Positions 25,388 through 41,221 of a stretch of 64,000 nt of DNA are shown in pieces. Each line of letters begins with the position of its first letter. The stretch's first letter is position 1. Position numbers and translations under genes: made by a program. Source of the DNA: Acidobacteriota bacterium. GTDB taxonomy: Bacteria > Acidobacteriota > Aminicenantia > Aminicenantales > Saccharicenantaceae. The notes under the pieces are model-generated. The model saw nothing but the letters and a program-made list of their open reading frames with translations, was not told the DNA's origin and made no database searches. The stretch lies in NCBI GenBank assembly GCA_039683095.1, contig JBDKSB010000012.1, forward strand, positions 838,293 through 902,292, in the 5' to 3' direction.

Positions 25388-25404
25388 TTGGCATGACAAT
25401 TGCT
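25388..25404 (+). promoter_or_regulatory. Sigma-54 (RpoN) promoter
   Basis: TTGGCATGACAATTGCT matches the -24/-12 consensus, with GG (25390-25391), ten bases, then GC (25402-25403). The expected transcript start is near 25414, giving a leader of about 37 bases before the downstream gene. Such promoters need an ATP-dependent activator; the inverted repeat at 25322-25340 is a candidate site. Confidence 0.75.
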
Positions 25405-25450: not shown

Positions 25451-26509
25451 ATGAGAGCTTCCAGAACGATCGCGGCCGCGCTCGCGCTCTTCGTCATCGC
25501 CGGTCTTCTCGCCGTGTCCGTGCAGGCGGCGCCCGGACCCCAGAAAGGCAAGCCAGCAGAGCCGAAGCCCCAGAAGGCTTCGATGCCCAAAGAGATCGCT
25601 GCGGTGATCCAGGAAGGACTGGGGACCAGGCAGGGGCGTCAGGACATTCCCTTCAGCTTCTTCAAGACGCTGATCCTCCCGGCCCAGCAGGACAATCTCT
25701 ACCCGGTCTGGTTCTTCAGGATCAAGAACGCCGACCTCGGCTACGCGCCCTCGGCCTCCGGATCGGGCGAGATGGAAGCCACGGTCAACGCCTACTTCCA
25801 GTTCTTCGAGCCGGACGCCGCCGGCGCGCTCAAGCCGAAATTCGGCGGCAAGGCCCAGGCCGTGGTGACGGCCCCCGGAGCCGGCTTCGACGCGCAGAAG
25901 GAGGACTGGTACTCCTTCGCCATGGGCCTGCCCCACGGCCAGTACACGCTGGCCTTCGTCCTGGCCTCGGCGGACATGAAGAAGCTCAGCGTCGCCTACA
26001 GCGATATCACCCTGCCCGGGACCGACGCCATCGCTTCGGCCCTGCTGCCCTCTGAGCCGATCGTCGTCGTCTCCATGGACCGGATCGATCCCGACCAGCG
26101 GCCGACCATCCACCGCGGCTGCTTCACCTGGGGCGGCATCAAGGTCGTCGCCAACGCGGACGCCGAGATCGCCTCCGGCGATAACCTCGAGATCCTCTCC
26201 TTCGTCATCGGCGCCGCCGTCAAGGATCCGGCCGCCCAACAGCCCCTGTTCGACATCGAGGTCAACTTCGAGGTCCAGGGCCAGGACGGCAAGCCGGCCA
26301 TCAAGTGGGCGCCCCAGTCCTACGAGATCTACCTGGTCAACCAGCCGCTGCCCCTGTTCCAGACCCTCCAGACGATGGACGAGAAGGGCACCGTGACCAA
26401 GACCGACAAGAAGCCGCTGCCGGCGGGGAAGTACGTCCTCGCGGTCAACGTCCTCGACAAGGTGACGGGCAAGAAGGGCGAGACCAAGATGACCTTCACG
26501 GTCAAGTAA
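25451..26509 (+). CDS. Exported protein of unknown function, possibly related to GWxTD-protein tail domains
   Basis: 352 residues. A signal peptide (about 1-27, VSVQAAPG) leads to a Lys/Pro-rich linker and then two or more beta-rich domains. The last ~40 residues (LPAGKYVLAVNVLDKVTGKKGETKMTFTV) look like the Ig-like strand pattern seen at the ends of GWxTD proteins, but the GWxTD region itself is absent. This resemblance is by eye. The start is fixed by AGGAGG seven bases upstream. It has its own sigma-54 promoter and a strong terminator, so it is a single-gene unit facing the GWxTD operon. Confidence 0.75.
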   Translation: MRASRTIAAALALFVIAGLLAVSVQAAPGPQKGKPAEPKPQKASMPKEIAAVIQEGLGTRQGRQDIPFSFFKTLILPAQQDNLYPVWFFRIKNADLGYAPSASGSGEMEATVNAYFQFFEPDAAGALKPKFGGKAQAVVTAPGAGFDAQKEDWYSFAMGLPHGQYTLAFVLASADMKKLSVAYSDITLPGTDAIASALLPSEPIVVVSMDRIDPDQRPTIHRGCFTWGGIKVVANADAEIASGDNLEILSFVIGAAVKDPAAQQPLFDIEVNFEVQGQDGKPAIKWAPQSYEIYLVNQPLPLFQTLQTMDEKGTVTKTDKKPLPAGKYVLAVNVLDKVTGKKGETKMTFTVK

Positions 26510-26536
26510 GTCCCGCCGTTACAGGATAGGATCGAC

Positions 26537-26569
26537 AAGGACCGCCCCGCCCGGGGCGGTCCTTTTTTT
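26537..26569 (+). terminator. Rho-independent terminator after the sigma-54-driven exported protein gene
   Basis: 12-bp stem (AAGGACCGCCCC, 26537-26548, with GGGGCGGTCCTT, 26553-26564), a 4-base loop, then a T run to 26569. It lies between convergent genes; the facing gene stops inside its 3' edge. Confidence 0.92.
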
Positions 26570-27491
26570 ATTCCTGTTTCTTCAGGTATTCGAGCAGCTG
26601 CCTGGCGATGCCGGCCTTCTCATGGGCCGGGGCCAGAGCCAGGAACTTCTCCAGGCTGGCCTTGGCCTCGGGCACCTTGTTCTGGCCGATCTGGATGGTC
26701 GCCATCTGGTAATAGGCGTCGGCATAATCCGGTTTAAGGCTGACCGCCTTCTCGAAGCAGGGCAGCGCGCCGGCCGAATCGCCGACGTTGACCAGGCAGA
26801 CGCCGAGGTTGTACTGGGCGTCGGGGTCGTCGGGGCTCAGGGAAACGGACTTCTCGTAGAACGGCTTGGCCTCGGCGAACCCGCCGGCCTTGGCCAGGGC
26901 CTCGCCGGCCTCCTTGTTGGCGCTGTAGCTCTCGGGGTTGAGCTCGACCGCCTTGCGGAACGCGGCCAGGGCCTCGCCGGCCTTGCCGCTCTTCTTGAGG
27001 GCCAGGCCGAGGTTGAGGTGGTAGCCCCAGTTGGCCGGGGCCTGGGCGATGGCCTCGTTGTAGGCGGCCGCGGCCTGCTCGAACTTCTGTTCGGCATAAA
27101 GTTTGTTGCCGTTGAGGAAGGCCTTGTCCGCCGCGGACAGGCTCCGCTCGGCGGCGGCCTCGACGGACATGAGCGTGATCTCGACGCCCTCGTCGCCGGC
27201 GACCCCGATGTGGATCTCCTTCGAGCCGGGGGCGAAGCCGGCCTTCTTGACGGTGAGCATGAAGTATCCGGGCATCACGCCGATCTGGACGAAGCGTCCG
27301 TCCTTGTCGGTCTTGAGGTCATAGCGGAGGGTGGCCGATTTCTGCGAGACGATGGACACGTCGGCCTTCTCGACCGGCTGGCCGGCCTTGTCGAGGACCC
27401 GGCCGCTGATCTTGCCCTGGAACTGGGGCCAGGCGGACAGGGCGAGCAGCAGGACCATCGCGGCCAGGGCGGCGGCTCTTCGGGACATCAT
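26568..27491 (-). CDS. Exported TPR protein with carboxypeptidase-regulatory-like domain
   Basis: 307 residues. A signal peptide (about 1-22) is followed by a beta-sandwich regulatory-like domain (about 27-100: ISGRVLDKAGQPVEKADVSI...VMPGYFMLTVKKAGF). About five TPR units follow from residue 125 to the end (for example NWGYHLNLGLALKKSGKAGEALAAFRKAVELNP). The N-domain type is the same as in the two Oar-like receptors nearby. It lies nine bases after the GWxTD gene on the same strand, so it is the second gene of that operon. It is probably a periplasmic scaffold. Confidence 0.85.
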   Translation of the reverse strand: MMSRRAAALAAMVLLLALSAWPQFQGKISGRVLDKAGQPVEKADVSIVSQKSATLRYDLKTDKDGRFVQIGVMPGYFMLTVKKAGFAPGSKEIHIGVAGDEGVEITLMSVEAAAERSLSAADKAFLNGNKLYAEQKFEQAAAAYNEAIAQAPANWGYHLNLGLALKKSGKAGEALAAFRKAVELNPESYSANKEAGEALAKAGGFAEAKPFYEKSVSLSPDDPDAQYNLGVCLVNVGDSAGALPCFEKAVSLKPDYADAYYQMATIQIGQNKVPEAKASLEKFLALAPAHEKAGIARQLLEYLKKQE

Positions 27492-27500
27492 GAGGAACTC

Positions 27501-29597
27501 CTATCGTTGGCCGATGCGTTTTTTCGCCTCCTCCTCCAGGGCCCGGACGGCCGGCTGGTCGGGAAGGAGGGTCAGGGATCGCTGGATGAGGGGCAGCGCT
27601 CTTTCCGGCCGGCCCAGGGCCATGTGGCACTCGGCGGCCAGGTTGAGGACGGGGACTTCGGTGGCCTCGGCCATGAGCTTGTCGAGGATGGCCAGGGCGG
27701 CGTTCCAGTCCTTCAGGCCGGCCTGGTCGAGGGCCATGACCTTGGCCGCCTCGCGGTCGCCCGTGCGCTCCCGGACGGCCGTCGCCTCGGTCAGCGATTC
27801 GCCGTAGAGGCCCAGGCCGTAGAGGGACTTGGCCAGGAGCAGGCGCGAATCGGCGTCGTCCCGGATCTGGAGGGCCCGCCGGAGGATGTCCCGGGACCGG
27901 GCGTAGTCGCCCTTCAGAAAATACTGGGAGCCCAGGACCTTGAGGTGCTCGAGGCCCGGGAAGGGACCGTGCAGACGGGCGTAGGGCCAGGGGGCCGCGT
28001 TCAGGGGCTGGGCCAGGACGATGAAGTTCTCGCTCTTCGTCAGCAGCCGCCGCCCGTCGGGCGCGACGAGCGACACGTCGGCCCGGAAATAGCCCGGCTT
28101 GACGTCCTTCAACGGCGCCTCGCCGGCGACCAGGAGGGCGGCCGGGTCGGCGGGGTCGGGCGCGACCTCGGTCAGCGGGAAGGTCGCGGCGATCTCGTTC
28201 CGGTCGAGCGAGAAGAGGTCGAGGACGAACGAAGGCGAAGCGCCCCGGACCAGGCCGGCGACATTGCGGGCCTGGACGAACGCGCCCAGGTTCGCCGCGG
28301 CTGGGAATTCGCGGCGGGCCCCGACGATGTACTGCTGCCCGCCGAAGACGAAGGCCTTGAGGTTCTTCTTCTGCGCCTCGGGGACGGCGCCGCGGCCGTA
28401 GAAGAGGAGCGGCGCCGTCAGGCCGGCCTGCCCGGCGTCGCCGGCGGGGACGTCGACCGGGGTCTCGAAGGAGGTGAAATCCCGGGTCGTCTTGTTCTTC
28501 AGCAGGAACAGGGCCCGGTATTCGCCGGGGGCGACGGCCAGGAGGTCCTGGAACGCGAAGCGCTGGCGCTGGTGCGCTTCGTACTGGGCCGCGTCGAGCC
28601 GGAGCGGGATCTCCTCTGTCCTCTCGAAGACGGTCCGCCCCCGGCCGTCCTCAAGCCGCAGGATGAGCTCGTAGCTGGCGTAGATGGACGGGCCCTGAGA
28701 GCTGAAGTTCATCTTGTCCGGCTCGATCGACCAGTGCAGGAACGGCTGGCCGCCCTCCCGGAAGACCCGGACGTCGAAGGCGCTCGGGATGAAGCGGTCG
28801 GAGTAATCGGTCTCGACGTAATCCTTGAACGCCAGGTAGGAGCGGGCGTAGCTGTCCGGATATTTTTTCTCCGGGAGGTTGCGGATGGCGGCGATGATGG
28901 CGTCGGACGAAAGCGACGAGAGGCCGGCCGGCGTCTCGCCCGGCACGTAGCTCTGGGAGGCCCGGGCCAGCTCGCCGTTGATGTCCTTGATCGCGGCCAG
29001 GGCGGTGCGCCGGTTCAGGGCGACGCCGTTGCCGAGCGCCGGGACGGTCAGCTTTTCCGGCCCGTCAACGCTCGGGGAATACAGCCGGAAATCGCCGATG
29101 CCCTCGGGACGGTAGAAGATGAGGTAGAAGTAGCTCGGCAGCCCGTACTGCTCTTCGCCCTGGTAGAACCACAGCTCGAGCGGCCAGAGCTGGGATTGGG
29201 TCTCGAACGAGGTCCGCTCGCGCGGCTTGCCCAGCAGGACGTAGAAGAAGCCCCGGTCGGTCTGGCTGCCGCGCTTGGGCGAGGTCCGGCCGAAGTTCTG
29301 GTCGGCATAGCGGATCCGCCCCTCGTATTCCTTCCGGAACTCGTTCTCCTCGGTATCGGGCAGGGGGTCGCGCGATTTCCAGAAGAAGCGGACGAACTTG
29401 GCCCGGTCGTCGTTGGTCTGGAGCCTGGTGAAGACGGCCCGCTCGGCCCTGGTGATGATCGGAGAGACGTCCTCGAGCCAAGCGGCCAGTTCGGGCGTCA
29501 TCTTCTCCGCGGCGGCCTGAGGCCCGCCGGCCAGGACGCTTCCCGCCGCCAGGAGGGCCGCCAGGGCCAGGCCGAGCCGGATCTTTTGGGTCTTCAA
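27501..29597 (-). CDS. GWxTD domain protein with C-terminal TPR region
   Basis: 698 residues. A signal peptide (about 1-23) is followed by the GWxTD-type N-terminal domain: ITRAERAVFTRLQTNDDRAKFVRFFWKSRDPLPDTEENEF, then GSQTD at 110-114 in place of GWxTD, then FYVLLGKP. A central beta-rich region (about 370-540) and TPR-like helices (about 570-690) come next. The family is known from Bacteroidota, Gemmatimonadota and Acidobacteriota-type genomes; its function is not established. The start codon is TTG at 29597, as in the neighbouring receptors. It is the first gene of a two-gene operon. Confidence 0.85.
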   Translation of the reverse strand: MKTQKIRLGLALAALLAAGSVLAGGPQAAAEKMTPELAAWLEDVSPIITRAERAVFTRLQTNDDRAKFVRFFWKSRDPLPDTEENEFRKEYEGRIRYADQNFGRTSPKRGSQTDRGFFYVLLGKPRERTSFETQSQLWPLELWFYQGEEQYGLPSYFYLIFYRPEGIGDFRLYSPSVDGPEKLTVPALGNGVALNRRTALAAIKDINGELARASQSYVPGETPAGLSSLSSDAIIAAIRNLPEKKYPDSYARSYLAFKDYVETDYSDRFIPSAFDVRVFREGGQPFLHWSIEPDKMNFSSQGPSIYASYELILRLEDGRGRTVFERTEEIPLRLDAAQYEAHQRQRFAFQDLLAVAPGEYRALFLLKNKTTRDFTSFETPVDVPAGDAGQAGLTAPLLFYGRGAVPEAQKKNLKAFVFGGQQYIVGARREFPAAANLGAFVQARNVAGLVRGASPSFVLDLFSLDRNEIAATFPLTEVAPDPADPAALLVAGEAPLKDVKPGYFRADVSLVAPDGRRLLTKSENFIVLAQPLNAAPWPYARLHGPFPGLEHLKVLGSQYFLKGDYARSRDILRRALQIRDDADSRLLLAKSLYGLGLYGESLTEATAVRERTGDREAAKVMALDQAGLKDWNAALAILDKLMAEATEVPVLNLAAECHMALGRPERALPLIQRSLTLLPDQPAVRALEEEAKKRIGQR

Positions 29598-29623
29598 AAG
29601 GCGCTTCCCTTTTTTGAGGAACT

Positions 29624-29652
29624 ACGATAGCACACGGTCCGGACGTTGACAA
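29624..29652 (-). promoter_or_regulatory. Sigma-70 promoter for the GWxTD/TPR operon
   Basis: On the minus strand, -35 TTGTCA (29647-29652), 17-bp spacer, -10 TATCGT (29624-29629). It gives a short leader of roughly 20 bases before the TTG start. Confidence 0.6.
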
Positions 29653-29686
29653 ATGCCAGTTCGGCGCGGCGGGGGAGAAATGGCCC

Positions 29687-29715
29687 TTGCCAAAGCGCCC
29701 CGGGATGTCTATGAT
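29687..29715 (+). promoter_or_regulatory. Sigma-70-type promoter for the first Oar-like receptor
   Basis: -35 TTGCCA (29687-29692), 17-bp spacer, -10 TATGAT (29710-29715). The leader to the TTG start would be about 200 bases. No sigma-54 element is found here, unlike the second receptor. Confidence 0.55.
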
Positions 29716-29924
29716 AGTTACGAAGAGGGTCGGGTTTCTTTCGGAAGGGCAGTCTTTTTCGCGTCCGGGAGCCGTCGTTCCCGTCGGCCTGAGCTCGAAG
29801 GAGCGGCCTGCCCCGCCGCACGGCCGGAACGCGGCCGGAAGGGAGGTGCTTCGAAGGAACGCCCAGATCCCATCGCCCCCTCGACCGAAGGCAAAATCCC
29901 GAGAACGATGAAAGGAGGTATCCC

Positions 29925-32708
29925 TTGAAGAGATCATTGTTCGTCCTGACGATTTGCCTTCTCCTCGTCCCCCTGTCCTTCTCCCAGTCCCGGGAGACCG
30001 GCGCCATCCGGGGCGTCGTGACCGACGACCAGGGCGACCCGATGCCCGGCGTCAGCGTGACGCTTTCGAGCCCGAGCCTCATGGGCCTGCGGACCTTCAT
30101 CACCGACGCCAGGGGCGAGTACCGCTTCCCGGCCCTGCCGCCCGGCGAATACAAGGTCCAGTTCGAGCTCCAGGGCTTCAACCCGATCGTCCGCGAGTCC
30201 ATCCGGCTCACGACCACGACCACGCTGACGGTGGACGTTCAGATGAAGGCCGCGGCGGTCGCCGAGGAGGTCACGGTCGTGGCCAAGGTCCCGACCGTGG
30301 ACGTCAAGTCCACGGAAACGGCCTCGGTCACCCTGTCCGACGAGATCCTGCGCAACGTCCCCAACAACCAGTTCACCGCGGAGATCGTCAACATGGCCCC
30401 CGGCGTCACCAACAACGTCGCCTACGGCGGGTCGGAGAACACCGGCATCGCCTACTCCATGGACGGCGTCAACGTCGCCGACCCCGAGGCCGGCTCGGCC
30501 TGGGTCTTCTCGGACTACAACATCATCGAGGAGGCCAAGGTCATGGGCATCGGCCTGCCGGCCGAATACGGGAATTTCACCGGGGTCATCTTCAACCTGG
30601 TGACCAAGTCCGGCGGCAACTCCTTGTCCGGCCATTTCGAATTCGACTTCCAGGGCTACCAGGCGGACTCGAGCTTCTGGCAGGCCAATAACAACCAGGC
30701 CTACCTCGCCGACTTCCCCGGTCTGACCTCGCCGAGCTCGAAGCTCCTGGACGTCAACGCCCACGTCGGCGGGCCGATCGTCAAGGACAAGCTCTGGTTC
30801 TACATCGGCGGCCAGTTCTACCGGACCATGGAACGGCCGGCCGGCTTCCCCGACGACGTCGACTACAAGCAGCCGCGGCTTTTCGTCAAGCTGAGCGCGC
30901 AGCCGTCGCCGTCGCTGAACGTGAGCCTGGCCTTCCAGAGGACCAAGTATCAGGGCACGAACCGCGACGCCGCCGACTGGGTCCTGCCCGAGGCCACCGT
31001 CACCCAGGATTCCCCGGACTGGCTCATCGGCCTGACCCTGACCAAGATCCTCAGCGCCAGGACCTTCTTCGACCTCAAGACCAACTACTTCGAGGGCCGC
31101 TATTACCTCGATCCCACGCCGGGCACCACGGCCGTTTCCCATTATTCCCTCAACGACGACCGGCTGTCGGGCAGCTCCGGCTACTATTACTGGGCGGACC
31201 GGGCCCGCTTCGGCACCAACGCCAGCCTGACGCATTACGTGGAGGACTTCCTGGCCGGGTCCCACGAGTTCAAGTTCGGCGCCGAGTTCGAGCGCTCCAT
31301 GGCCCGGAGCCGCTACGGCTATACCGGCAGCGGCGGCGAGCTGGGGGACAACGTCAAGTACACCGACTACGTCGGCTACGCCTACAACCTCTCCGGCCAG
31401 CTAGCCTACTTCACCGGCCCCTATCTGGCCTATCAGTACGCCGGCTACGACGTGAACACGCGCTACACCCGGCTGGAGGTCTTCGCCCAGGATTCCTGGC
31501 AGGTCACGAAGCGGCTGAACATCAGCCTCGGCCTTCGCTTCAGCCAGAACTGGGGCGACGTCAAGGGCGTTTCCGGCGTCGTCTACAACACCCACCGCCT
31601 GGCGCCGCGCCTGGGGTTCACCTTCGACGTTCTGGGCGACAAGACCACCATCCTCAAGGCCCACTACGGCCAGTTCACCGAGGCCATGCTGACGTCCTAC
31701 CACGACCGGATGAACCCCGTCGCCAACTTCAGCCACAAGATCGGCTACATGTACGATCCCCTGACCGCGTCCTGGGACCTCTGGTACGACATCCCGCACG
31801 ATCCCTACACCATGGACCCGGACATCAAGCATCCGTACATGACCCAGTTCACGGTCGGGATCGAGCGCGAGCTGTTCAAGAACACCTCCCTGGGCGTGAC
31901 CTACATCAACCGGAGGTGGAACAACCTCATCGGCAAGTACGACACCCTGGGCGTCTACGAGCCCGCAACGGTCCATTCCGACGAGCTCGGCCGAGATTTC
32001 ACCGTCTACCAGCGGACCCTCGACACCCTCGACACCTACTCCTACATCATCACCAACCTGAAGCAGAGCCCCGACCTGCCCTACATCCTGGCGGACCCCT
32101 ACCGCAAGTACGAGGGCATCGAGGTCCTGTTCAACAAGCGCTTCTCCAACCGCTGGCAGCTGCTGGCGTCCTACGTCTACGGCCGGGCCACCGGGACGGT
32201 GGACAACTCCTTCGGCGAGGATGTCGGCGCCGCCTGGGCCGCCACCAAGAGCGACCCGAACATCTGGATCAACGCCGAGGGCCATCTGACCAACGATCCG
32301 ACCCACATGATCAAGATCCAGGGCACCTACATCCTGCCGCTCGACATCAGCCTGACCGGCTACTTCTGGGGCATCACCGGCAGCTCCTGGACGACGCGCA
32401 TACTGACCGACTGGTTCAACCAGGGGCAGATCACGTTCTTCACCGAGGAGCGGGGCGACCATCACTATCCCATGCAGAAGATCCTCAACCTGCGCCTGGA
32501 GAAGGTCTTCACCCTGGCCCGGAAGTACCGCCTCGGCCTGATGTTCGACGTCTTCAACGTGTTCAACGACGACACCATCATGTCCTGGGGCACCCGGATC
32601 GGCTACGACTGGTTCACCGACGGCACGTATCCCTCGACCGACGGGCACCGGCTGCGCAGCATCAGCACGCCGAGGAACGCCCGCCTCGGCATCCGGTTCA
32701 TGTTCTAG
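29925..32708 (+). CDS. Oar-like TonB-dependent outer-membrane receptor (copy 1)
   Basis: 927 residues. A signal peptide (to SFSQ, about residue 20) is followed by a carboxypeptidase-regulatory-like domain (about 22-105: ETGAIRGVVTDDQGDPMPGVSVTL...LPPGEYKVQFELQGF). A TonB plug-like region (about 125-230) follows, then a 22-strand-type barrel ending in RLGIRFMF with a C-terminal Phe. No TonB box is obvious. Known Oar-type proteins are outer-membrane transporters or adhesion and secretion factors. The start is TTG 29925 with AAAGGAGG upstream. It is a close paralogue of the gene at 33000 and is followed by its own terminator. Confidence 0.88.
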   Translation: MKRSLFVLTICLLLVPLSFSQSRETGAIRGVVTDDQGDPMPGVSVTLSSPSLMGLRTFITDARGEYRFPALPPGEYKVQFELQGFNPIVRESIRLTTTTTLTVDVQMKAAAVAEEVTVVAKVPTVDVKSTETASVTLSDEILRNVPNNQFTAEIVNMAPGVTNNVAYGGSENTGIAYSMDGVNVADPEAGSAWVFSDYNIIEEAKVMGIGLPAEYGNFTGVIFNLVTKSGGNSLSGHFEFDFQGYQADSSFWQANNNQAYLADFPGLTSPSSKLLDVNAHVGGPIVKDKLWFYIGGQFYRTMERPAGFPDDVDYKQPRLFVKLSAQPSPSLNVSLAFQRTKYQGTNRDAADWVLPEATVTQDSPDWLIGLTLTKILSARTFFDLKTNYFEGRYYLDPTPGTTAVSHYSLNDDRLSGSSGYYYWADRARFGTNASLTHYVEDFLAGSHEFKFGAEFERSMARSRYGYTGSGGELGDNVKYTDYVGYAYNLSGQLAYFTGPYLAYQYAGYDVNTRYTRLEVFAQDSWQVTKRLNISLGLRFSQNWGDVKGVSGVVYNTHRLAPRLGFTFDVLGDKTTILKAHYGQFTEAMLTSYHDRMNPVANFSHKIGYMYDPLTASWDLWYDIPHDPYTMDPDIKHPYMTQFTVGIERELFKNTSLGVTYINRRWNNLIGKYDTLGVYEPATVHSDELGRDFTVYQRTLDTLDTYSYIITNLKQSPDLPYILADPYRKYEGIEVLFNKRFSNRWQLLASYVYGRATGTVDNSFGEDVGAAWAATKSDPNIWINAEGHLTNDPTHMIKIQGTYILPLDISLTGYFWGITGSSWTTRILTDWFNQGQITFFTEERGDHHYPMQKILNLRLEKVFTLARKYRLGLMFDVFNVFNDDTIMSWGTRIGYDWFTDGTYPSTDGHRLRSISTPRNARLGIRFMF

Positions 32709-32730
32709 CTCCCCGCCGCGCGCCTGCGCC

Positions 32731-32766
32731 AGCCCCGGAAGGCCGCCCTTCCGGGGCTCTTTTTTA
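32731..32766 (+). terminator. Rho-independent terminator after Oar-like receptor 1
   Basis: 12-bp stem AGCCCCGGAAGG (32731-32742) with CCTTCCGGGGCT (32747-32758), a 4-base loop, then a T run. The stem is identical to that of the terminator after receptor 2. Confidence 0.93.
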
Positions 32767-32784
32767 TTAAGAAACCCCTTGCAG

Positions 32785-32810
32785 TTATCCTAATTCTTGG
32801 ATAATATCCA
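32785..32810. promoter_or_regulatory. Overlapping inverted repeats upstream of the sigma-54 promoter (candidate activator site)
   Basis: TTATCC (32785-32790) pairs with GGATAA (32799-32804), and TGGATA (32798-32803) pairs with TATCCA (32805-32810) around one base. GGAT/ATCC half-sites thus recur, with one more GGATT at 32818-32822, in an AT-rich stretch 77-100 bases upstream of the -24 element. This arrangement is typical of enhancer-binding-protein sites, but none is identified. Confidence 0.45.
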
Positions 32811-32884
32811 TTATGTTGGATTAGTAAGTAACCATTTATTAGTCTATTTCGTCTATTCTAGCGCCGGATAGGTGAAAGGGCCGA

Positions 32885-32902
32885 CTGGCATGGAATTTGC
32901 TT
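32885..32902 (+). promoter_or_regulatory. Sigma-54 (RpoN) promoter of Oar-like receptor 2
   Basis: CTGGCATGGAATTTGCTT has GG (32887-32888), ten bases, then GC (32899-32900), close to the consensus. The expected start is near 32911, leaving a leader of about 90 bases before TTG 33000. It resembles the element at 25388, sharing TGGCATG and TTGCT. Confidence 0.78.
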
Positions 32903-32999
32903 GCTCTCACGTTCATGAGTGATCGCAAGGAAAGCGCTGCGCCCCGTCGTCTCCGTAGCTCATCGGCAATGCCCCCTAGGAATTCATAAGGAGGAATTT

Positions 33000-35750
33000 T
33001 TGAAGAACAAACTGATCGCCATCTTCGCCCTGACCCTCCTTCTCGCTCCCGTCGCCTTCTCCCAATCCCGGGAGACGGGCGCCATCCGCGGCGTCGTGTC
33101 CGAAGAATCGGGCGCCCCGCTGCCCGGCGTCAACGTGACGCTCTCGGGCGGCAACCTCATGGGCACCCGGACCTACGTGACCGACGCCAACGGCGAGTAC
33201 CGCTTCCCCGCCCTGCCGCCCGGCGAATACCAGGTCAAGGCCGAGCTCCAGGGATTCGGGACGGTCATCCGCGAGAAGATCCGTCTGACGACGACGTCCA
33301 CCCTGGCCGTCGACATCCAGCTGAAGCCGTCGGCCTTGGCCGAAGAGGTCACGGTCATCGGCCAGTCGCCGACGGTCGACGTCAAGTCGACGGAGACCGC
33401 GTCCGTCACGCTGTCGAACGAGATCCTGCGGAACATCCCCTACAGCCAGTTCACCTCGGACATCGTCAACATGGCCCCCGGCGTCAACAATGACAGCGCC
33501 TACGGCGCCTCGTCCGGGACGGGCGTCGCCTACACGATGGACGGCGTCGGCGTCGGCGACCCCGACGCCGGCTCGGCCTGGGTCTTCCTCGATCACAACA
33601 TCGTCGAGGAAGCCAAGGTCATGGGCGTCGGCCTGCCGGCCGAGTACGGCAACTTCACCGGCGTCATCTTCAACCTGGTGACCAAGTCCGGCGGCAACGA
33701 CTTCGCCGGGCACGTCGAGTTCAACCGCCAGATGTCGGGGTCCAAGTTCTGGCAGGCCAACAACAACGCCGCCTACCTCGGGGACTTCCCCGGCCTGACC
33801 GCGCCGAGCTCGAACCTCTTCGACATCAACGTCCATCTCGGCGGACCGATCGTCAAGGACAAGCTCTGGTTCTACGTCGGCGGCCAGTACTACCGGACCA
33901 AGGACCGCCCGACCGGGTTCCCCGAGGACGTCGACTACAAGCAGCCCCGCGGTTTCATCAAGCTGACGAGCCAGATCACCCCCTCCCTGAACATCAACGT
34001 CTCCCTCGAGATGGACAACTACAAGGGCGTCAACCGCGACTCCGCCTCGAATGTCGACGCCGACGCCACGGTCAGCCAGGAATCGCCCGAGAAGGTCGGC
34101 AACTTCAGCCTGACCCAGATCTTCAGCCCGACGACCTTCTTCGACCTCAAGGGCGCCTTCTTCCACGGCTATTACTACCTCGAGCCGGAAACGGGCCGCG
34201 ACACCTACATGCACTTCGACTATGCCGACAACCGGCGCCATGACAGCGCCGGCTACTACTACCTCGCCGACCGGTCGCGCTACCAGGCCAACGCCAGCCT
34301 GACCCACTACGTCGAGGATTTCATCGCCGGCTCGCACGATTTCAAGTTCGGCGCCGAGATCGAGCGCTCCTTCGTCCGCAGCCGCTACGGCTATACCGGC
34401 ACCGGCGGCGCCCTCGGCAACGCCGTCGAGTACTACGACTACACGGACTACGTATACGCCGGCGTCTCCAACTACCTCGCCTACCAGTACGGCGGCTACG
34501 ACAACAACACTCGCTACACCCGCCTCGAGGGCTTCGTCCAGGATTCCTGGCAGGTCACCAAAAGGCTCAACATCAGCCTGGGCCTCCGCCTGAGCCAGTA
34601 TTGGGGCCAGGTCAAGAACGTCAGCGGCAACGTCTACACGGCCAGCCGCATCTCGCCGCGCCTCGGCTTCACCTTCGACGTGCTCGGCGACAAGACCACC
34701 ATCTTCAAGGCCCATTACGGCCAGTTCGCCGAGGCCATGAACGCCAGCTACCACGACCACATGAACCCCGCCTCGGCCTACCAGGACAAGGTCAGCTATT
34801 ACTGGGACTATATTGATGCGAGCTGGGTAGAGTTCGAGCGCGTCGTCCACGAGAACCTCTACTCCATGGATCCGGACATCAAGCACCCGTACATGGAGCA
34901 GATCACGTTCGGCCTCGAGCGCGAGCTGTTCAAGGACGCGTCCCTGAGCGTCACCTACATCCATCGCAACTGGAAGAACACGATCGGTCCGGTCGACCGC
35001 GCCGCCGACTATACGGAGTACGCGGTCACGGTCCCGGGCTACGGCAACTACACGATCTACCAGCGGACCGCCGAGACTGTCAGCACCTTCAACTACCTGA
35101 TCACGAATTACAAGGCCGGCGACAACTGGATCCTGGCCGATCCGTACCGCAAGTACGACGGCCTCGAGATCCTCTTCAACAAGCGCTTTTCCAACCGCTG
35201 GCAGCTGGTCGCCTCCTACGTCCTGTCGAAGACCCACGGCACGATCGACAACGGCCAGGCCGACGACATCAACTACGGCGGCGGCACCAATGATCCGAAC
35301 TTCTACATCAACGCCGACGGCCACGCGACCTACGACCCGACGCACATGATCAAGGTCCAGGCTTCGTACCTCATCCCGGTCATCGACCTGAGCGTCAACG
35401 CCTACTTCCGCGGCATCACCGGGAACGCCTGGACGGCCCGCTACCGCACCGCGCGCCTGAACCAGGGCCGGGTCACCTTCTTCCTCGAGCCGCGCGGCAG
35501 CGAGCACTATCCCATGGACACGGAATTGGACATCCGGCTCGAGAAGATCTTCACCATCGCCAAGAAGTACCGCCTTGGCGTGCTGTTCGACGTCTTCAAC
35601 GTCTTCAACGCCGACGCGGTCACGTCCTGGGGGACGCGCGTCGATTACGACTGGTACACCGACGGCACGTATCCCTCGACGAGCGGGCACGAGCTCTACG
35701 GCATCGTCAATCCCCGCCAGGCCCGCATCGGCGTCCGTCTCATCTTCTAA
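33000..35750 (+). CDS. Oar-like TonB-dependent outer-membrane receptor (copy 2)
   Basis: 916 residues. A signal peptide (to AFSQ) leads to a carboxypeptidase-regulatory-like domain (ETGAIRGVVSEESGAPLPGVNVTL), a plug-like region and a barrel ending RIGVRLIF. The architecture and most motifs match the upstream paralogue (EYRFPALPPGEY, VDVKSTETASVTLS, MGVGLPAEYGNFTGVIFNL, DVFNVFN). The start is TTG 33000 with AGGAGG upstream; longer frames run into the promoter. It is transcribed from a sigma-54 promoter, unlike copy 1, and ends in a terminator with the same stem. Confidence 0.88.
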   Translation: MKNKLIAIFALTLLLAPVAFSQSRETGAIRGVVSEESGAPLPGVNVTLSGGNLMGTRTYVTDANGEYRFPALPPGEYQVKAELQGFGTVIREKIRLTTTSTLAVDIQLKPSALAEEVTVIGQSPTVDVKSTETASVTLSNEILRNIPYSQFTSDIVNMAPGVNNDSAYGASSGTGVAYTMDGVGVGDPDAGSAWVFLDHNIVEEAKVMGVGLPAEYGNFTGVIFNLVTKSGGNDFAGHVEFNRQMSGSKFWQANNNAAYLGDFPGLTAPSSNLFDINVHLGGPIVKDKLWFYVGGQYYRTKDRPTGFPEDVDYKQPRGFIKLTSQITPSLNINVSLEMDNYKGVNRDSASNVDADATVSQESPEKVGNFSLTQIFSPTTFFDLKGAFFHGYYYLEPETGRDTYMHFDYADNRRHDSAGYYYLADRSRYQANASLTHYVEDFIAGSHDFKFGAEIERSFVRSRYGYTGTGGALGNAVEYYDYTDYVYAGVSNYLAYQYGGYDNNTRYTRLEGFVQDSWQVTKRLNISLGLRLSQYWGQVKNVSGNVYTASRISPRLGFTFDVLGDKTTIFKAHYGQFAEAMNASYHDHMNPASAYQDKVSYYWDYIDASWVEFERVVHENLYSMDPDIKHPYMEQITFGLERELFKDASLSVTYIHRNWKNTIGPVDRAADYTEYAVTVPGYGNYTIYQRTAETVSTFNYLITNYKAGDNWILADPYRKYDGLEILFNKRFSNRWQLVASYVLSKTHGTIDNGQADDINYGGGTNDPNFYINADGHATYDPTHMIKVQASYLIPVIDLSVNAYFRGITGNAWTARYRTARLNQGRVTFFLEPRGSEHYPMDTELDIRLEKIFTIAKKYRLGVLFDVFNVFNADAVTSWGTRVDYDWYTDGTYPSTSGHELYGIVNPRQARIGVRLIF

Positions 35751-35775
35751 GGCTCCATCTCTCCGCGCACGCCCG

Positions 35776-35812
35776 AGCCCCGGAAGGCCTTCCTTCCGGG
35801 GCTCTTTTTTTT
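35776..35812 (+). terminator. Rho-independent terminator after Oar-like receptor 2
   Basis: Stem AGCCCCGGAAGG (35776-35787) with CCTTCCGGGGCT (35792-35803), a CCTT loop, then eight T bases. The stem is the same as that of the terminator at 32731. Confidence 0.93.
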
Positions 35813-35863
35813 CGGGCCGCCGCCGTTACCGGCGGCCGGCCTTTTTTGGTAAGATAGACGGCG

Positions 35864-38215
35864 ATGACCGAACGGATGAAGGCGAAGAAGAAGAGGCCGC
35901 TTTGGCCCGCCGCGGCGGTCCTGCTGGCCGGGGCCGGTCTGGCGGCCTTTTTCCTGCTGCGCCCGCGGGCCGCGGATTTCGCCGGGCTGCGGGACGGCAG
36001 GGACTTCAGCGTCATCCTGATCACGGTGGACACCCTGCGGGCCGACAAGGTCGGCTGCTACGGCAATCCCGGCGTCCGGACGCCGGCGATCGACGGCTTC
36101 GCCGCCCGGGGCGTCCGCTTCGCCGGCTGCATCTCCCAGACGCCCCTGACCCTGCCGTCCCACACGACCATCATGACCGGCACCCTGCCGCCCTATCACG
36201 GCGTCCGCGACAACGGCGGTTTCGTCGTCCCCTCGGAGCTCGAGACCATGGCCGAGGCGTTCAAGCGGAAGGGCTACGACACCGCGGCCTTCGTCGCCGC
36301 CTATGTCGTCGATTCCAAGTGGGGCCTGAACCAGGGCTTCGACACCTACTTCGACAAGTTCGACTTGAGCCGCTTCGAGCGCATCTCGCTTGGCGAGGTC
36401 CAGCGGCCGGCCAACGAGGTCCTGGACGAGGCCCTGGGCTGGCTCGACAAGAAGAAGGACGGCAAGTTCTTCGCCTGGATCCACCTCTACGACCCGCACA
36501 CGCCCTACGAGCCGCCCGAGCCGTTCAAGTCCGAATACGGCCAGAACCCTTACCTCGGTGAGATCGCCTTCGCCGACAGCCAGCTGGCCCGCCTGAACGA
36601 TTTCATCGACCGGGCGGGGCTGCGGGACCGCCTTTTCCTCGTCCTGGCCGGCGACCACGGCGAGAGCCTGGGCGAGCACCGGGAGAGCAGCCACGGCTTC
36701 TTCCTATACCAGGGCGCATTGCACGTCCCGCTCATCGTCGTCACGCCGTTCAAGCCCCTCCAGGGTGTCGTCGCCAACGGGACGGTCGGCCTGGTCGACG
36801 TCATGCCGACGATCTGCGACATGGCCGGCCTGCCCGTGCCAGCGGCGGTCCAGGGCCGGAGCCTGGTCCCCGATCTCTTCCGCCCCGGCGCCGCGGCCGG
36901 CCGCCTGGCCTATTCGGAGACCTATTACCCCCGCTATCACTACGGCTGGTCCGAGCTCCGGAGCGTCCAGGACGGCCGGTACAAACTCATCCTGGCCCCG
37001 GTGCCCGAGCTCTACGATCTCGAGGCCGACCCGCGCGAACAGAAGAACCTCGTCTACATCGAGAAGAGGGTCTACGAAGACCTCTCGGCCAGGGCCAGGG
37101 CCATGATGGCCGAGGCCGGCCGGAACGGCCTGGAGGTCGATCTCAAGAAGGTCGACGAGGAGACCCGGGAGAAGCTGGCCGCCCTCGGCTACATCGGCTC
37201 GTTCACCGACTCGTCGAAGCTCCAGGGCCGGAAGCTGGCCGACCCCAAGGACAAGATCGGCATCTTCAACGAGCTGTCCCGGGCCCGCGAGGACGGCCTG
37301 GCCGGCGATCCCGACCGTGCCATCGCGGCCATCCGGGCCATCATCGCCGAGGACCCGGCCATCGGCGACGCCCATTTCGGCCTGGGCAACGTACTCTTCA
37401 AGGCCCGGCGCTTCCCCGAGGCCCTGGAGGCCTTCTCCAAGGCCCTTGACCTCAAGCCCGACGACTCGTTCGCCGCCATCAACGTGGCCAACTGCTATCA
37501 GGCCATGGGCCGCTACGACGAGGCCGAGAAGTTCGTCCTCGACTACGTCGCCCGCGGCTTCGAGGACTCCCAGCTCTACTTCCTGCTCGGCAACATCAAG
37601 GTCCACCACGGCCAGCCTGACAAGGCCATCCCCTATTTCGAGAAGTGCCTGGCGGTCAACCCGATGTCGGCCTCGGCCTACAACGCGCTGGGGGCGGTCT
37701 ACCTCACGCTCGACGGCCCGGGCGACCTGGAGCGGGCCGACCGGGCCTTCGCCTCCGCCGCGGCCATCAACCCGGCCTTGACCAGCCTGCGTTACAACAC
37801 GGCCCAGGTCCGCGAGAAGCAGGGCCGGCTGGAGGAGGCCGCCGCCCTCTACGGCCAGGAGATCCAGGACACGCCCAAGAGCTACAAGGCCCTCTACAAC
37901 CTGTCCCGGGTCTATCGCCAGATGGGCCGGGAGGAAGAGGAGCTCCGGACGCTGCGGCGGACGATGGAGGTCGAGCCGGATTTCCCGCTGGCCTATTTCC
38001 ACGCCGCCCGCATCCTGCTCCGGCGCGGCGGGGATTACCACGAGGCCATCGCCCTGGCCCTGAAGGGCATCGAGCTGCGGCCGGCCCCGGCCGAGCTGCC
38101 GCTCGGCTACTTCCTCCTGGCGGATCTCTACAACCGCGTCGGCGACGACGCCCGTTCGGCGGAGAACGCCAGAAAAGGACAGGCGGCCGCGGCCGCCGCG
38201 GCCAGCCGGAAGTAA
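35864..38215 (+). CDS. Membrane-anchored sulfatase-fold hydrolase/transferase fused to TPR repeats
   Basis: 783 residues. One membrane helix near 15-32 anchors it, probably facing the periplasm. An alkaline-phosphatase/sulfatase fold covers about 48-410: VILITVDTLRADKVGCYG with a metal Asp, and LVLAGDHGESLGEH with metal Asp/His. At the nucleophile position the motif is T96-L-P-S-H, with Thr instead of the Cys/Ser of sulfatases (CxPxR). About nine TPR units fill 430-770. The Thr suggests a phospho- or phosphoglycerol-type transferase or hydrolase rather than a formylglycine sulfatase. It lies between the receptors and the second GWxTD operon. Confidence 0.87.
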   Translation: MTERMKAKKKRPLWPAAAVLLAGAGLAAFFLLRPRAADFAGLRDGRDFSVILITVDTLRADKVGCYGNPGVRTPAIDGFAARGVRFAGCISQTPLTLPSHTTIMTGTLPPYHGVRDNGGFVVPSELETMAEAFKRKGYDTAAFVAAYVVDSKWGLNQGFDTYFDKFDLSRFERISLGEVQRPANEVLDEALGWLDKKKDGKFFAWIHLYDPHTPYEPPEPFKSEYGQNPYLGEIAFADSQLARLNDFIDRAGLRDRLFLVLAGDHGESLGEHRESSHGFFLYQGALHVPLIVVTPFKPLQGVVANGTVGLVDVMPTICDMAGLPVPAAVQGRSLVPDLFRPGAAAGRLAYSETYYPRYHYGWSELRSVQDGRYKLILAPVPELYDLEADPREQKNLVYIEKRVYEDLSARARAMMAEAGRNGLEVDLKKVDEETREKLAALGYIGSFTDSSKLQGRKLADPKDKIGIFNELSRAREDGLAGDPDRAIAAIRAIIAEDPAIGDAHFGLGNVLFKARRFPEALEAFSKALDLKPDDSFAAINVANCYQAMGRYDEAEKFVLDYVARGFEDSQLYFLLGNIKVHHGQPDKAIPYFEKCLAVNPMSASAYNALGAVYLTLDGPGDLERADRAFASAAAINPALTSLRYNTAQVREKQGRLEEAAALYGQEIQDTPKSYKALYNLSRVYRQMGREEEELRTLRRTMEVEPDFPLAYFHAARILLRRGGDYHEAIALALKGIELRPAPAELPLGYFLLADLYNRVGDDARSAENARKGQAAAAAAASRK

Positions 38216-38222
38216 GGCCTGA

Positions 38223-39155
38223 TCAGATCTGGAACTTCCGCTCGATGGCGGCCTTGCTGCCGTCGGTCGCGTTGGTGACGAGGGCGCTCAGCGTATAGGG
38301 GCCGGGCTTGAGCGGAGCGCTGGCCTCGACGGTGAAATCCCCGGCCAGGACCTCCTTCAGGCGGCTCTCCGGGATATCGAGGGGATAGCTCTTGGTGAAG
38401 GCCCAGGCTTCCCGGCCTTCGGTGTCGGAGACCTTCATCACGACCTCGAGGGTCGTCCGGAGTGACTGCCCCCCGGACTTCATCCAGATGCTTTTGTAAG
38501 GAACGGTCAGCACGAACCGGGCCGTCTCCTTGTCGGCGACCTGGATCGAGACCTCGAGCCCGGCGATGCTAGACGCGTAACGAACGCCGCCCGCCTGGGG
38601 CAGCCCTTCGCGCGGCAGGTTGAACTCCCGCTGGGCCTGGGTGATCACGGCGATCTGCCCGGCGCTGTCCGGGGAGATCTTGTAGTCGTCGTTCCAGTAC
38701 TCGTCGATGAAGACGATGGCGACCATGCCGTACCACCAGATCTCGGTGGGCAGGCCGTAGAACGTGACGCCACGCGGATAGGTGATGCGGGTGTCCGGGG
38801 GCCCGAGCGTGATGTAGACCCGGCCGCGGTCCTGGAGCCAGCCCGGGGCGCCGCCGCCGGAGAAGAGCCTGTTGGACCGCTCGATCCGGTTGTAGTACTC
38901 GATCTTGTACTCGTTCTCGGGGCTGACGGGGGTCGGGTCCCGCCGCTTCCAGAAGTCCTCGATGAACGGCTCCCGGGCCTCGGGAGCCAGGGCCAGGAAG
39001 GCCCGGCGCTCCTCCGGCGTGATCGTGTAGCGGACCTTGGAGATGAAATCCCGGCTCTTGGGATCGAGCTGCTTCAGGGCGCCCGACGAAGCGCAAGCGC
39101 CGGCAAGCAGCATCGTCCCCAGGGCCAGGGCCCAAACCCTGACTGAGACGGACAT
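38223..39155 (-). CDS. GWxTD domain lipoprotein
   Basis: 310 residues. The lipobox LAGAC (Cys21) marks a lipoprotein. The GWxTD-type domain covers about 30-180: VRYTITPEERRAFLALAPEAREPFIEDFWKRRDPTPVSPENEYKIEYYNRI, then GWLQD at 105-109, then RGRVYITLGPP. A beta-rich tail ends in a strand typical of the family (YTLSALVTNATDGSKAAIERKFQI). Its start overlaps the upstream GWxTD/TPR stop by one base, so the two are co-translated and may work as a pair on the envelope. The function is unknown. Confidence 0.85.
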   Translation of the reverse strand: MSVSVRVWALALGTMLLAGACASSGALKQLDPKSRDFISKVRYTITPEERRAFLALAPEAREPFIEDFWKRRDPTPVSPENEYKIEYYNRIERSNRLFSGGGAPGWLQDRGRVYITLGPPDTRITYPRGVTFYGLPTEIWWYGMVAIVFIDEYWNDDYKISPDSAGQIAVITQAQREFNLPREGLPQAGGVRYASSIAGLEVSIQVADKETARFVLTVPYKSIWMKSGGQSLRTTLEVVMKVSDTEGREAWAFTKSYPLDIPESRLKEVLAGDFTVEASAPLKPGPYTLSALVTNATDGSKAAIERKFQI

Positions 39156-41221
39156 CAGTCCTCCTTGATCTTGCCCTGGATGTCGGCCAGCTTCTTGGCG
39201 AGCTCGGGCTGCGACGGGTTGAGCTCGAGCGACTTCTTCCAGGCCGTGATGGCCCCGGCCAAGTCGCCGGTCTTGACATAACAGTCGCCGATCGCGTTGA
39301 GTACGTTGAGGTTCGTCCCGGAGTAGGTCAGGTAATCCTTATAAAAAGCGGCGGCCTCCGCGTAGCGGCCGAGGGCCTGGGCGCTCTCGCCGAGGTACTG
39401 GGCGAACTCGAAGTTCTTCCTGTCCCGGTAGAACGGCAGGGCCACGGAGTGGAGACCGTCGTAATCCTTGGCTTCGTAAAGAACGCGGCAGAGGTCGAGG
39501 GCGTAGGCCGCTGACCCCGGCGCCCGCCGCGAGGCCTCTTCGAGGAGCGGCCGGGCCTTGGCCAGGTCGCCCTTCTGGAAATACTGCATGCCGCGGATGT
39601 CGGCATAGGAGGGGTCGCCGGCGGCGGGCAGCGGCGCGTACATGATCCAGGCGCGCGGCAGGGCCGTGTTGGCCGTGACGTAGAACGCCGCCTTGGACGT
39701 CAGGACGGCTGTCCTGGACGCGTCGAGCAGCTCGACCTGGGCCGTGTAGTAGTCCGGCGGGAAATTCGCCAGCGGGAAGTCCTCGAAGACCCGGAAGGGG
39801 TCGCCCGCGCCGGCCAGGGACTTGCTGATGGCAGCCACGACCTGGTCGTTCCGGACCATCGTGATGGACAGGCTGCCGCCGGCCTTCAGCGCTTCGGTCA
39901 GGCCGCCGAGCTCGCAGAACAGGGTCAGCGTGTTCTGGACCGTGAAATCGTTGCGGGGGGAGGCGACGAGCTGGGTCTCCCCGACCGTGAAGGGCTTGAT
40001 CTGTCCGGCAAAGGCAAGATTGCGGACGACCCGGTTGGCCAGGAGGGGCGCGCTCAGGGTCAGGGTCCGGGCCGGCGGGATATTGACGGCCGCCTCGACC
40101 GAGGTGAATTCCTTGGAGACCGTGTTCTTCCAGAGCAGGCTGATCTTGTAATCGCCCTCGATGAGCGGGAAGGAATCCTGGAGTGAGACCTTGCGGTCCC
40201 TGACCTTGGCGAACTGCTCTTCGTTGAGCTCCAGCGGGATCTTGCGGTCGAACTGGTAGACGGTCTTGCCGTTAGCGTCGGAGACGATGCCGTTGACGTC
40301 GAAGACCGTCCGGTAGAGGCCCTCGATGCGCTCGATGCTGAGACGGGACGGCTCGATGAGGTAGTGGACGAAGGCCCGGCCGGCGGCGTCCCGGGCGACC
40401 TGGACCATGGCGTCGTTCTCGATGTAATTGGCCGTGTACTCGACCTCGACGATGTCCTTGTACTTGAGGAGCTTCTCGGCGTAGGAGTCCTTGACGCTCT
40501 CGTAGCCCATCCGGGGGATCTTCTGGCTGATCAGGATGTCGGAGGCCGGGGTGGGGTTCATGCCCTGGACGTACTCGCCGGGGATGAGGGACATCGACAG
40601 GTCGGCCAGGACCGCGTTGCGCTGCCGCAGCTCGCCCCAGGCCTGGAGGTAGTTGGTCATGTCGCCGTTGTAGAAGGGCATGAGCTTCTGGGGCCCGTCC
40701 CGGACCGGGGAGTAGAGGATATAGTCGCCGCCGCCGTCCTTCTTGAAGAACACGACGTAGAAGGAGTTGGGCATCCCGCCGCCCATCTGCCCCTGGTAGA
40801 ACCAGACGATCATCGGGTAGACGTCGGTTTCGTTCTCGTAGCGCTCGATCGTCTTCGGCTCGCCCAGCGTGATATAGACCCGGCCCATGTCGGACCGCCA
40901 GCCGCCGGCCTTGAGGCCGCGGCCGAACCACAAGTTGGAGTACTGGATGCGGCGGTAGTGCTCGTCCTTGAACTTGTTCTCGGGCGTCGACGGGTCCTCG
41001 TCCCGGGCCTTCCAGAAGGCCGTGATGAACATATCCCGCTCCCGGTCGTTGGCCAGCCGGAGGAAGACGGACTTTTCCTTGGGCGAGATGATGTAGGGGA
41101 CTTCCTCTTCGATCCAGGAGCGGAAGCGCTCGGGCAGGTCCCTGACGGCGGCCTTCTGCGCTGCTGCGGGAAGCGCGGCCAGAGTCAAAGCGCCAAGAAG
41201 AGCGACGGTTCGAAGCTTCAT
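39155..41221 (-). CDS. GWxTD domain protein with C-terminal TPR repeats
   Basis: 688 residues. A signal peptide (to PAAAQ, about residue 22) is followed by the GWxTD-type domain (YIISPKEKSVFLRLANDRERDMFITAFWKARDEDPSTPENKF, then GWRSD at 107-111, then MGRVYITLGEP). Beta-rich domains follow to about 530, then TPR helices (about 545-680). It has the same architecture as the protein at 27501-29597, so the two are paralogues. I chose ATG 41221 because it gives a proper signal peptide with GGACC/AAAGGA sequence upstream. It is the first gene of the second GWxTD operon. Confidence 0.86.
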   Translation of the reverse strand: MKLRTVALLGALTLAALPAAAQKAAVRDLPERFRSWIEEEVPYIISPKEKSVFLRLANDRERDMFITAFWKARDEDPSTPENKFKDEHYRRIQYSNLWFGRGLKAGGWRSDMGRVYITLGEPKTIERYENETDVYPMIVWFYQGQMGGGMPNSFYVVFFKKDGGGDYILYSPVRDGPQKLMPFYNGDMTNYLQAWGELRQRNAVLADLSMSLIPGEYVQGMNPTPASDILISQKIPRMGYESVKDSYAEKLLKYKDIVEVEYTANYIENDAMVQVARDAAGRAFVHYLIEPSRLSIERIEGLYRTVFDVNGIVSDANGKTVYQFDRKIPLELNEEQFAKVRDRKVSLQDSFPLIEGDYKISLLWKNTVSKEFTSVEAAVNIPPARTLTLSAPLLANRVVRNLAFAGQIKPFTVGETQLVASPRNDFTVQNTLTLFCELGGLTEALKAGGSLSITMVRNDQVVAAISKSLAGAGDPFRVFEDFPLANFPPDYYTAQVELLDASRTAVLTSKAAFYVTANTALPRAWIMYAPLPAAGDPSYADIRGMQYFQKGDLAKARPLLEEASRRAPGSAAYALDLCRVLYEAKDYDGLHSVALPFYRDRKNFEFAQYLGESAQALGRYAEAAAFYKDYLTYSGTNLNVLNAIGDCYVKTGDLAGAITAWKKSLELNPSQPELAKKLADIQGKIKED

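Follow-up and report, generated by a model that had tools for sequence, protein, structure and literature searches.

The DNA analysed here, hereafter the window, is a stretch of 64,000 nucleotides from contig JBDKSB010000012.1 of an Acidobacteriota bacterium of the order Aminicenantales (assembly GCA_039683095.1). Between positions 25451 and 41221 it carries eight genes, which a preliminary description of the sequence had proposed to be an undescribed envelope system. The list of open reading frames and a codon-usage gene caller recover all eight genes, and their products show a signal or hydrophobic N-terminal segment, in line with the exported, lipoprotein or membrane-bound nature proposed for them. 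Searches with Pfam and NCBIfam profiles likewise confirm the domains named in that description: a GWxTD domain in three proteins, tetratricopeptide repeats (TPRs) in four (genes at 26568, 27501, 35864 and 39155), and a CarboxypepD_reg domain in both barrels and the protein at 26568.

The minus-strand genes form two operons, also as described. One consists of CpdTPR (26568..27491), with a signal peptide, CarboxypepD_reg (PF13620, E 6.5e-14) and a TPR array (TPR_2, 5.7e-26), and GWTPR1 (27501..29597), with a GWxTD head, beta-sandwich domains and a C-terminal TPR (TIGR04514, 1.6e-26). The other comprises GWTPR2 (39155..41221; TIGR04514, 6e-30), where a signal peptide is followed by the GWxTD head (residues ~25-256), two beta-sandwich domains (~260-528) and TPRs (~537-688), and GWsh (38223..39155; 3.3e-29), a short GWxTD lipoprotein with the lipobox LAGAC. 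None of the three proteins keeps the GWxTD motif to the letter (they read GSQTD, GWLQD and GWRSD), but their domain scores of 92.9, 101.5 and 103.9 bits far exceed the curated TIGR04514 cut-off of 28 bits. The plus strand encodes EXP1 (25451..26509), an exported protein of 352 aa, the two Oar-type TonB-dependent barrels OAR1 (29925..32708; PF25183, 4.5e-34) and OAR2 (33000..35750; 1.2e-35), and SULFTPR (35864..38215), which combines an N-terminal transmembrane anchor, a sulfatase-fold domain of the alkaline phosphatase superfamily (PF00884, 1.1e-41) and a C-terminal TPR. For OAR2, 33000 is a better start than the 32919 given earlier. Strong intrinsic-terminator-like hairpins follow EXP1 (26537..26564), OAR1 (32731..32758) and OAR2 (35775..35804), so that the plus-strand genes seem to be transcribed as separate units.

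We searched for recurrence of this gene set in other genomes; the taxa compared belong to Acidobacteriota, and the recurrence and linkage results apply to that phylum. GWxTD proteins are encoded in 216 of 297 sampled genomes, up to a dozen or more in each, and in a scan of named genomes the best 80 of the matches listed nearly all carry the label Acidobacteriota or Aminicenantes. Relatives in five families of the order carry most of the set, at 20 loci in all, where GWTPR-GWsh-CpdTPR is a frequent run and the sulfatase/TPR and Oar genes vary in orientation. GWsh has a match in 40 of 40 relatives, and a lipobox is present in 31 of 68 short GWxTD members. The window's own genome (G000) has 12 GWxTD genes above the Pfam cut-off, and a weak 13th; the set reappears there at four loci beyond the window (L052, L053, L054 and L059 in our numbering of fetched GWxTD-related loci). 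L111, the site of the weak 13th gene, is a sixth but weaker case, and L051 and L057 are partial ones. The neighbourhood, on whose recurrence in related genomes the preliminary description had staked its proposal, is therefore found in five families and at five loci of a single genome. Reduced forms extend to other classes of Acidobacteriota: L108 combines a GWxTD gene with two sulfatase/TPR genes and an Oar, L168 has the order Oar-CpdTPR-GWxTD, and in the named strain Paracidobacterium acidisoli (L181) an Oar gene lies next to a GWxTD-TPR gene. Across all loci the co-directional adjacencies GWTPR to GWsh (34), GWsh to Cpd (22), Oar to Sulf (20) and GWTPR to Cpd (13) occur alongside many permutations.

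The association exceeds chance within individual genomes. With GWxTD loci placed at random on an approximated contig layout and neighbours counted within 8 kb, an Oar gene accompanies 6 of 10 GWxTD loci in G000 (1.0 expected, P 1e-4), 5 of 5 in G009 (0.4 expected), 4 of 5 in G020 (0.4 expected, P 2.5e-4) and 3 of 7 in G190, a genome of a distant class (0.4 expected, P 0.005; P 0.0007 at 4 kb). Oar and sulfatase genes occur together near 5 of 10 loci in G000 (0.31 expected; reached in 0 of 20,000 shuffles) and 3 of 5 in G020 (0.11 expected). In the permutation test on G190 no GWxTD locus had both; in that genome the link to Oar persists and the link to the sulfatase is absent. The GWxTD-partnered Oars are polyphyletic and scattered through the Oar tree, with 9 label changes where shuffles give 12.3. 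In the GWTPR tree the window's GWTPR2 stands beside the GWTPR of L054, while GWTPR1 falls in a family-specific clade. The pairing is thus kept while the partners change, and together with the varying gene order the polyphyly of the partnered Oars indicates that this is not one frozen cluster.

A further shared feature is the promoter. The two sigma-54 promoters claimed for the window are exact matches to TGGCATG-N4-TTGCT, located on the plus strand at 25389..25404, 46 bp upstream of the ATG of EXP1 at 25451, and at 32886..32901, 98 bp upstream of the ATG of OAR2 at 33000. They occur nowhere else in the window, where chance would yield 0.36 sites even with one mismatch allowed, and the first element is present upstream of 8 of 8 aligned EXP1 orthologues (family f1). 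Scanning 2.32 Mb of fetched loci revealed 51 exact sites, 49 of them intergenic, against 2 in the reversed control sequence: 26 precede an Oar, 9 an EXP1 homologue (usually 37-51 bp upstream), 5 a CpdTPR and 1 a type IV pilin. The whole G000 genome contains 21 exact sites (control, 2) and one gene for RpoN. Four of these sites precede GWxTD-linked Oars and one precedes EXP1; none precedes an Oar without a GWxTD link, and the remaining sites are mostly located before exported or regulatory genes. Judged by these matches, a shared class of predicted sigma-54 promoters precedes Oar, CpdTPR and EXP1-type genes throughout the lineage. One of the genome-wide sites lies at L201 484 (G000:C1:161783); the genes downstream of such sites mostly encode exported proteins, one of them resembling a type IV pilin.

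EXP1 has no Pfam family above the cut-off. Profile alignment with hhalign matches it over 264 columns to the tandem beta-sandwich region of the GWxTD-TPR family (probability 97.4, E 1.2e-11), which makes it a relative of the GWxTD-TPR proteins without the GWxTD head or TPR and not an unrelated neighbour. Taken together, the above-chance recurrence across and within genomes, the shuffled gene orders, the shared sigma-54 class and the homology of EXP1 to the GWxTD proteins support the proposal of an undescribed envelope system, and the proteins very probably work as one transport or envelope machine. The further suggestions of that description, a periplasmic scaffold or chaperone relay of TPR/GWxTD proteins and a glycan or lipid modified by the enzyme, are hypothetical. 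The GWxTD family (TIGR04514/PF20094) is named but has no assigned function; the three window proteins score above its curated cut-offs, and the present analysis places the family in a recurring module and adds EXP1 as its headless relative. In an AlphaFold2 model of GWTPR2 (mean pLDDT, the predicted local distance difference test score, 88.9) a mixed alpha/beta head is followed by the beta-sandwiches and a TPR arm, and fold searches with the whole model return mainly TPR and Ig-type beta-sandwich matches. The head modelled alone (pLDDT 92.5) has no fold match in the PDB (none below E 0.079 with Foldseek, no Z above 2.9 with VIA-align), although this is no proof that the fold is new. The GR-x-YI-x-LG-x-P hairpin in the head was at first read as BamE-like, but BamE chains match only at a non-significant E of 1.6-2.6 and the reading was rejected. 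Models of defence systems gave no match. The 5.4 million papers searched, among which subscription journals are mostly missing and whose silence is hence not proof, do not mention GWxTD, PF20094 or TIGR04514, and none of them brings together Oar-like proteins, Acidobacteria and TonB.

Both barrels carry the CarboxypepD_reg N-terminal extension, as do all 24 of 24 Oars, and score above the cut-off of the PF25183 barrel domain, as do 23 of the 24. The Plug domain PF07715 is weak in OAR1 (E 0.12) and reaches E<=1e-3 in 10 of 24. TonB boxes are apparent in OAR1 (EEVTVVA at residue 114) and OAR2 (EEVTVIG), and occur in 59 of 85 Oars compared with 2.3% of shuffled sequences. G000 has three genes for ExbD and an Oar family of ~22 genes. 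At L059 13465-16656 a stop divides the module's Oar gene in two, with open stretches of 171 and 892 codons, and the gene may therefore be interrupted or mis-assembled. In the distant genome G190, three consecutive GWxTD genes lie beside an Oar (L095 8697-13818). One of the closest known counterparts is the Oar of Myxococcus xanthus, a TonB-dependent transporter needed for secretion of PopC (PMC6434023). It belongs to the same barrel subclass, sharing the CarboxypepD_reg extension, the TonB box and a TonB-dependent-type barrel. By contrast, the barrels studied here are multi-copy, have sigma-54 sites and are accompanied by GWxTD, CpdTPR and sulfatase/TPR partners, none of which the accessible text of PMC6434023 gives for Myxococcus.

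SULFTPR has the sulfatase fold but not the S1 sulfatase active-site motif Cys/Ser-x-Pro-x-Arg. Its nucleophile position is occupied by threonine (PLTLPSHTTIMTG), within the motif T-L-P-S-H, whereas a stand-alone sulfatase of G000 reads C-A-P-S-R. Among TPR-linked members the residue is Thr in 48 of 50, Ser in one and unread in one, which argues that SULFTPR is not an ordinary formylglycine sulfatase. From what is established for the alkaline phosphatase superfamily, a threonine nucleophile would favour phospho-transfer or phosphodiester cleavage over sulfatase chemistry. The transferases EptA/MCR-1 and LtaS share with SULFTPR the sulfatase-type fold and the threonine at this position; SULFTPR differs in its fusion to TPRs, and its best sequence matches of solved structure are S1 sulfatases and choline-sulfatase. 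We suggest that the 'sulfatase' labels on TPR-fused enzymes of Acidobacteriota are wrong. At L110 (beside two Oars), L112, L113 and L114, Thr-type sulfatase/TPR genes have no GWxTD gene beside them, so the enzyme family extends beyond the module; the PF00884 family of G000 has ~14 genes.

The observed domain content, recurrence, linkage, promoter class, EXP1 homology, threonine nucleophile and TonB boxes, and the ExbD and RpoN genes, form the basis of the model that we consider most likely, at about an even chance: an Oar-based, TonB-powered, multi-copy transport or envelope module served by periplasmic and lipoprotein cofactors of its own, present in the window in two overlapping copies. The Oar barrel would be its variable, substrate-specific gate, powered through TonB. 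The GWxTD-TPR proteins and the short GWxTD lipoprotein would act as dedicated outer-membrane cofactors of the barrel, in physical complex with it, their beta-sandwich domains and TPRs providing binding and docking surfaces, and CpdTPR, whose N-terminal domain is in common with the barrel, may bridge to it. The membrane-anchored Thr-type enzyme might dock via its own TPR and cleave or transfer a phospho-group, or less likely a sulfo-group, carried by the cargo or by an envelope component, and sigma-54 would turn on barrels and cofactors. The repeated occurrence of an anchored enzyme, a lipoprotein and exported TPR/beta-sandwich proteins around a TonB-dependent barrel, in numerous copies whose barrels diverge, agrees with a transport module in which the barrel sets specificity and GWxTD proteins are cofactors. 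Several observations weigh against this model. Oar linkage is not significant in the permutation test on G030. Terminators divide the plus-strand units. Co-duplication of whole modules inside G000 found no support, as distances among paired components show no correlation there (Mantel test, n=4-6, not significant), and species phylogeny confounds the corresponding correlation across genomes. Among 106 flanking proteins, no cargo or hydrolase gene recurs consistently. Finally, away from the syntenic site, roughly one in two GWxTD-TPR loci lacks any Oar, Cpd or sulfatase gene within 6 kb, and in other Acidobacteriota such neighbours are missing from many GWxTD genes that occur in single copy; GWxTD proteins may therefore have a wider job, which limits the claim of a module.

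The partnerless genes are also expected if the GWxTD/TPR proteins serve generally as periplasmic chaperones or assembly factors and are not parts of a transport complex, adjoining Oars because these are among their outer-membrane clients. The predicted architecture of beta-sandwiches and TPRs would suit client binding, and the Oar lineages paired with GWxTD are diverse, but a recurrent catalytic Thr-type enzyme is left unexplained and the GWxTD head shows no supported similarity to known assembly factors, making this explanation rather improbable. Chance co-occurrence of abundant Oar, TPR and sulfatase families, later inherited by synteny, is very hard to sustain. The Oar and PF00884 families of G000 are indeed large, and many of the order's loci represent one syntenic site, but independent loci within one genome, several genomes, shuffled orders and the permutation excess all argue against it. 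At the other extreme, the modules might represent a new class of outer-membrane machine, unrelated to Sus, type IX secretion and Lol/Bam: sigma-54-controlled and multi-copy, for transport or secretion, with GWxTD proteins as dedicated partners of many Oars, a Thr-type phospho-transferase or phosphodiesterase as processor and a domain fold not among solved structures. We regard this as a tentative proposal, doubtful in its full form.

Two narrower versions of the transport module differ in the direction of transport. Each module may be a Sus-like uptake locus with an oligosaccharide or peptide of its own, in which TPR/GWxTD proteins stand in for SusD. As in the SusC/SusD (RagA/RagB) systems of Bacteroidota, multi-copy divergent TonB-dependent barrels each have beside them a dedicated partner, an exported protein or lipoprotein in which TPRs can occur; SusD itself is TPR-based, and its family demonstrates that such a partner can serve a TonB-dependent barrel in uptake (PMC2954216). 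Some modules are flanked by suggestive genes: GH2, GH116 and polysaccharide deacetylase at L052, DUF2961 at L055 and a CBM9-like protein at L111. However, a Pfam tally of the 106 flanking proteins contains no frequent glycosidase family (DUF2961 occurs 4 times, M28 peptidase 3), and a polysaccharide-utilisation reading of all modules was dropped after it. The eight window proteins have no SusD/RagB domain among their Pfam and NCBIfam matches, carbohydrate enzymes are not consistently present, the Thr-type enzyme is an addition, and the window module sits among mltG, ddl, lptFG and groEL, so we hold uptake of the Sus kind to be a minority possibility. Protein secretion of the Myxococcus Oar/PopC type appears unlikely. 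The barrel subclass, with its PF13620 extension and TonB box, is the same, Myxococcus Oar demonstrates that such barrels can work with the Ton system in secreting a protein (PMC6434023), and TPR adaptors fit export, but no conserved cargo gene emerges among the flanking proteins, and sharing of CarboxypepD_reg is weak evidence because, according to the same paper, the extension is dispensable for secretion in Myxococcus. The flanking genes, which also include gamma-glutamyltranspeptidase at L053 and a CapC/Mur-ligase pair at L111 but contain no common family, do not decide between uptake and secretion; the diversification of the receptors makes us favour uptake slightly. The tie of GWxTD proteins to Oar barrels, a Thr-type enzyme and sigma-54 provides a testable hypothesis for a family without a function, including its members in P. 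acidisoli.

A few observations concern the surroundings of the modules. At L111 3662-5222 the genes for CapC and a Mur-ligase-like (PgsB/CapB-like) protein, a pair known from the synthesis of poly-gamma-glutamate capsules, adjoin an Oar, a CpdTPR and a sulfatase/TPR gene as well as the weak GWxTD gene. A contig labelled 'Clostridiales bacterium A05DMB-I-28' (L142) has an Aminicenantes-type GWxTD module, and its label is probably wrong. The loci of relatives often adjoin genes for a bifunctional nuclease, lptFG and groEL. In the window, LptF and LptG are apparently fused into one 776-aa protein with two PF03739 stretches (43177-45507), an arrangement syntenic across the order.

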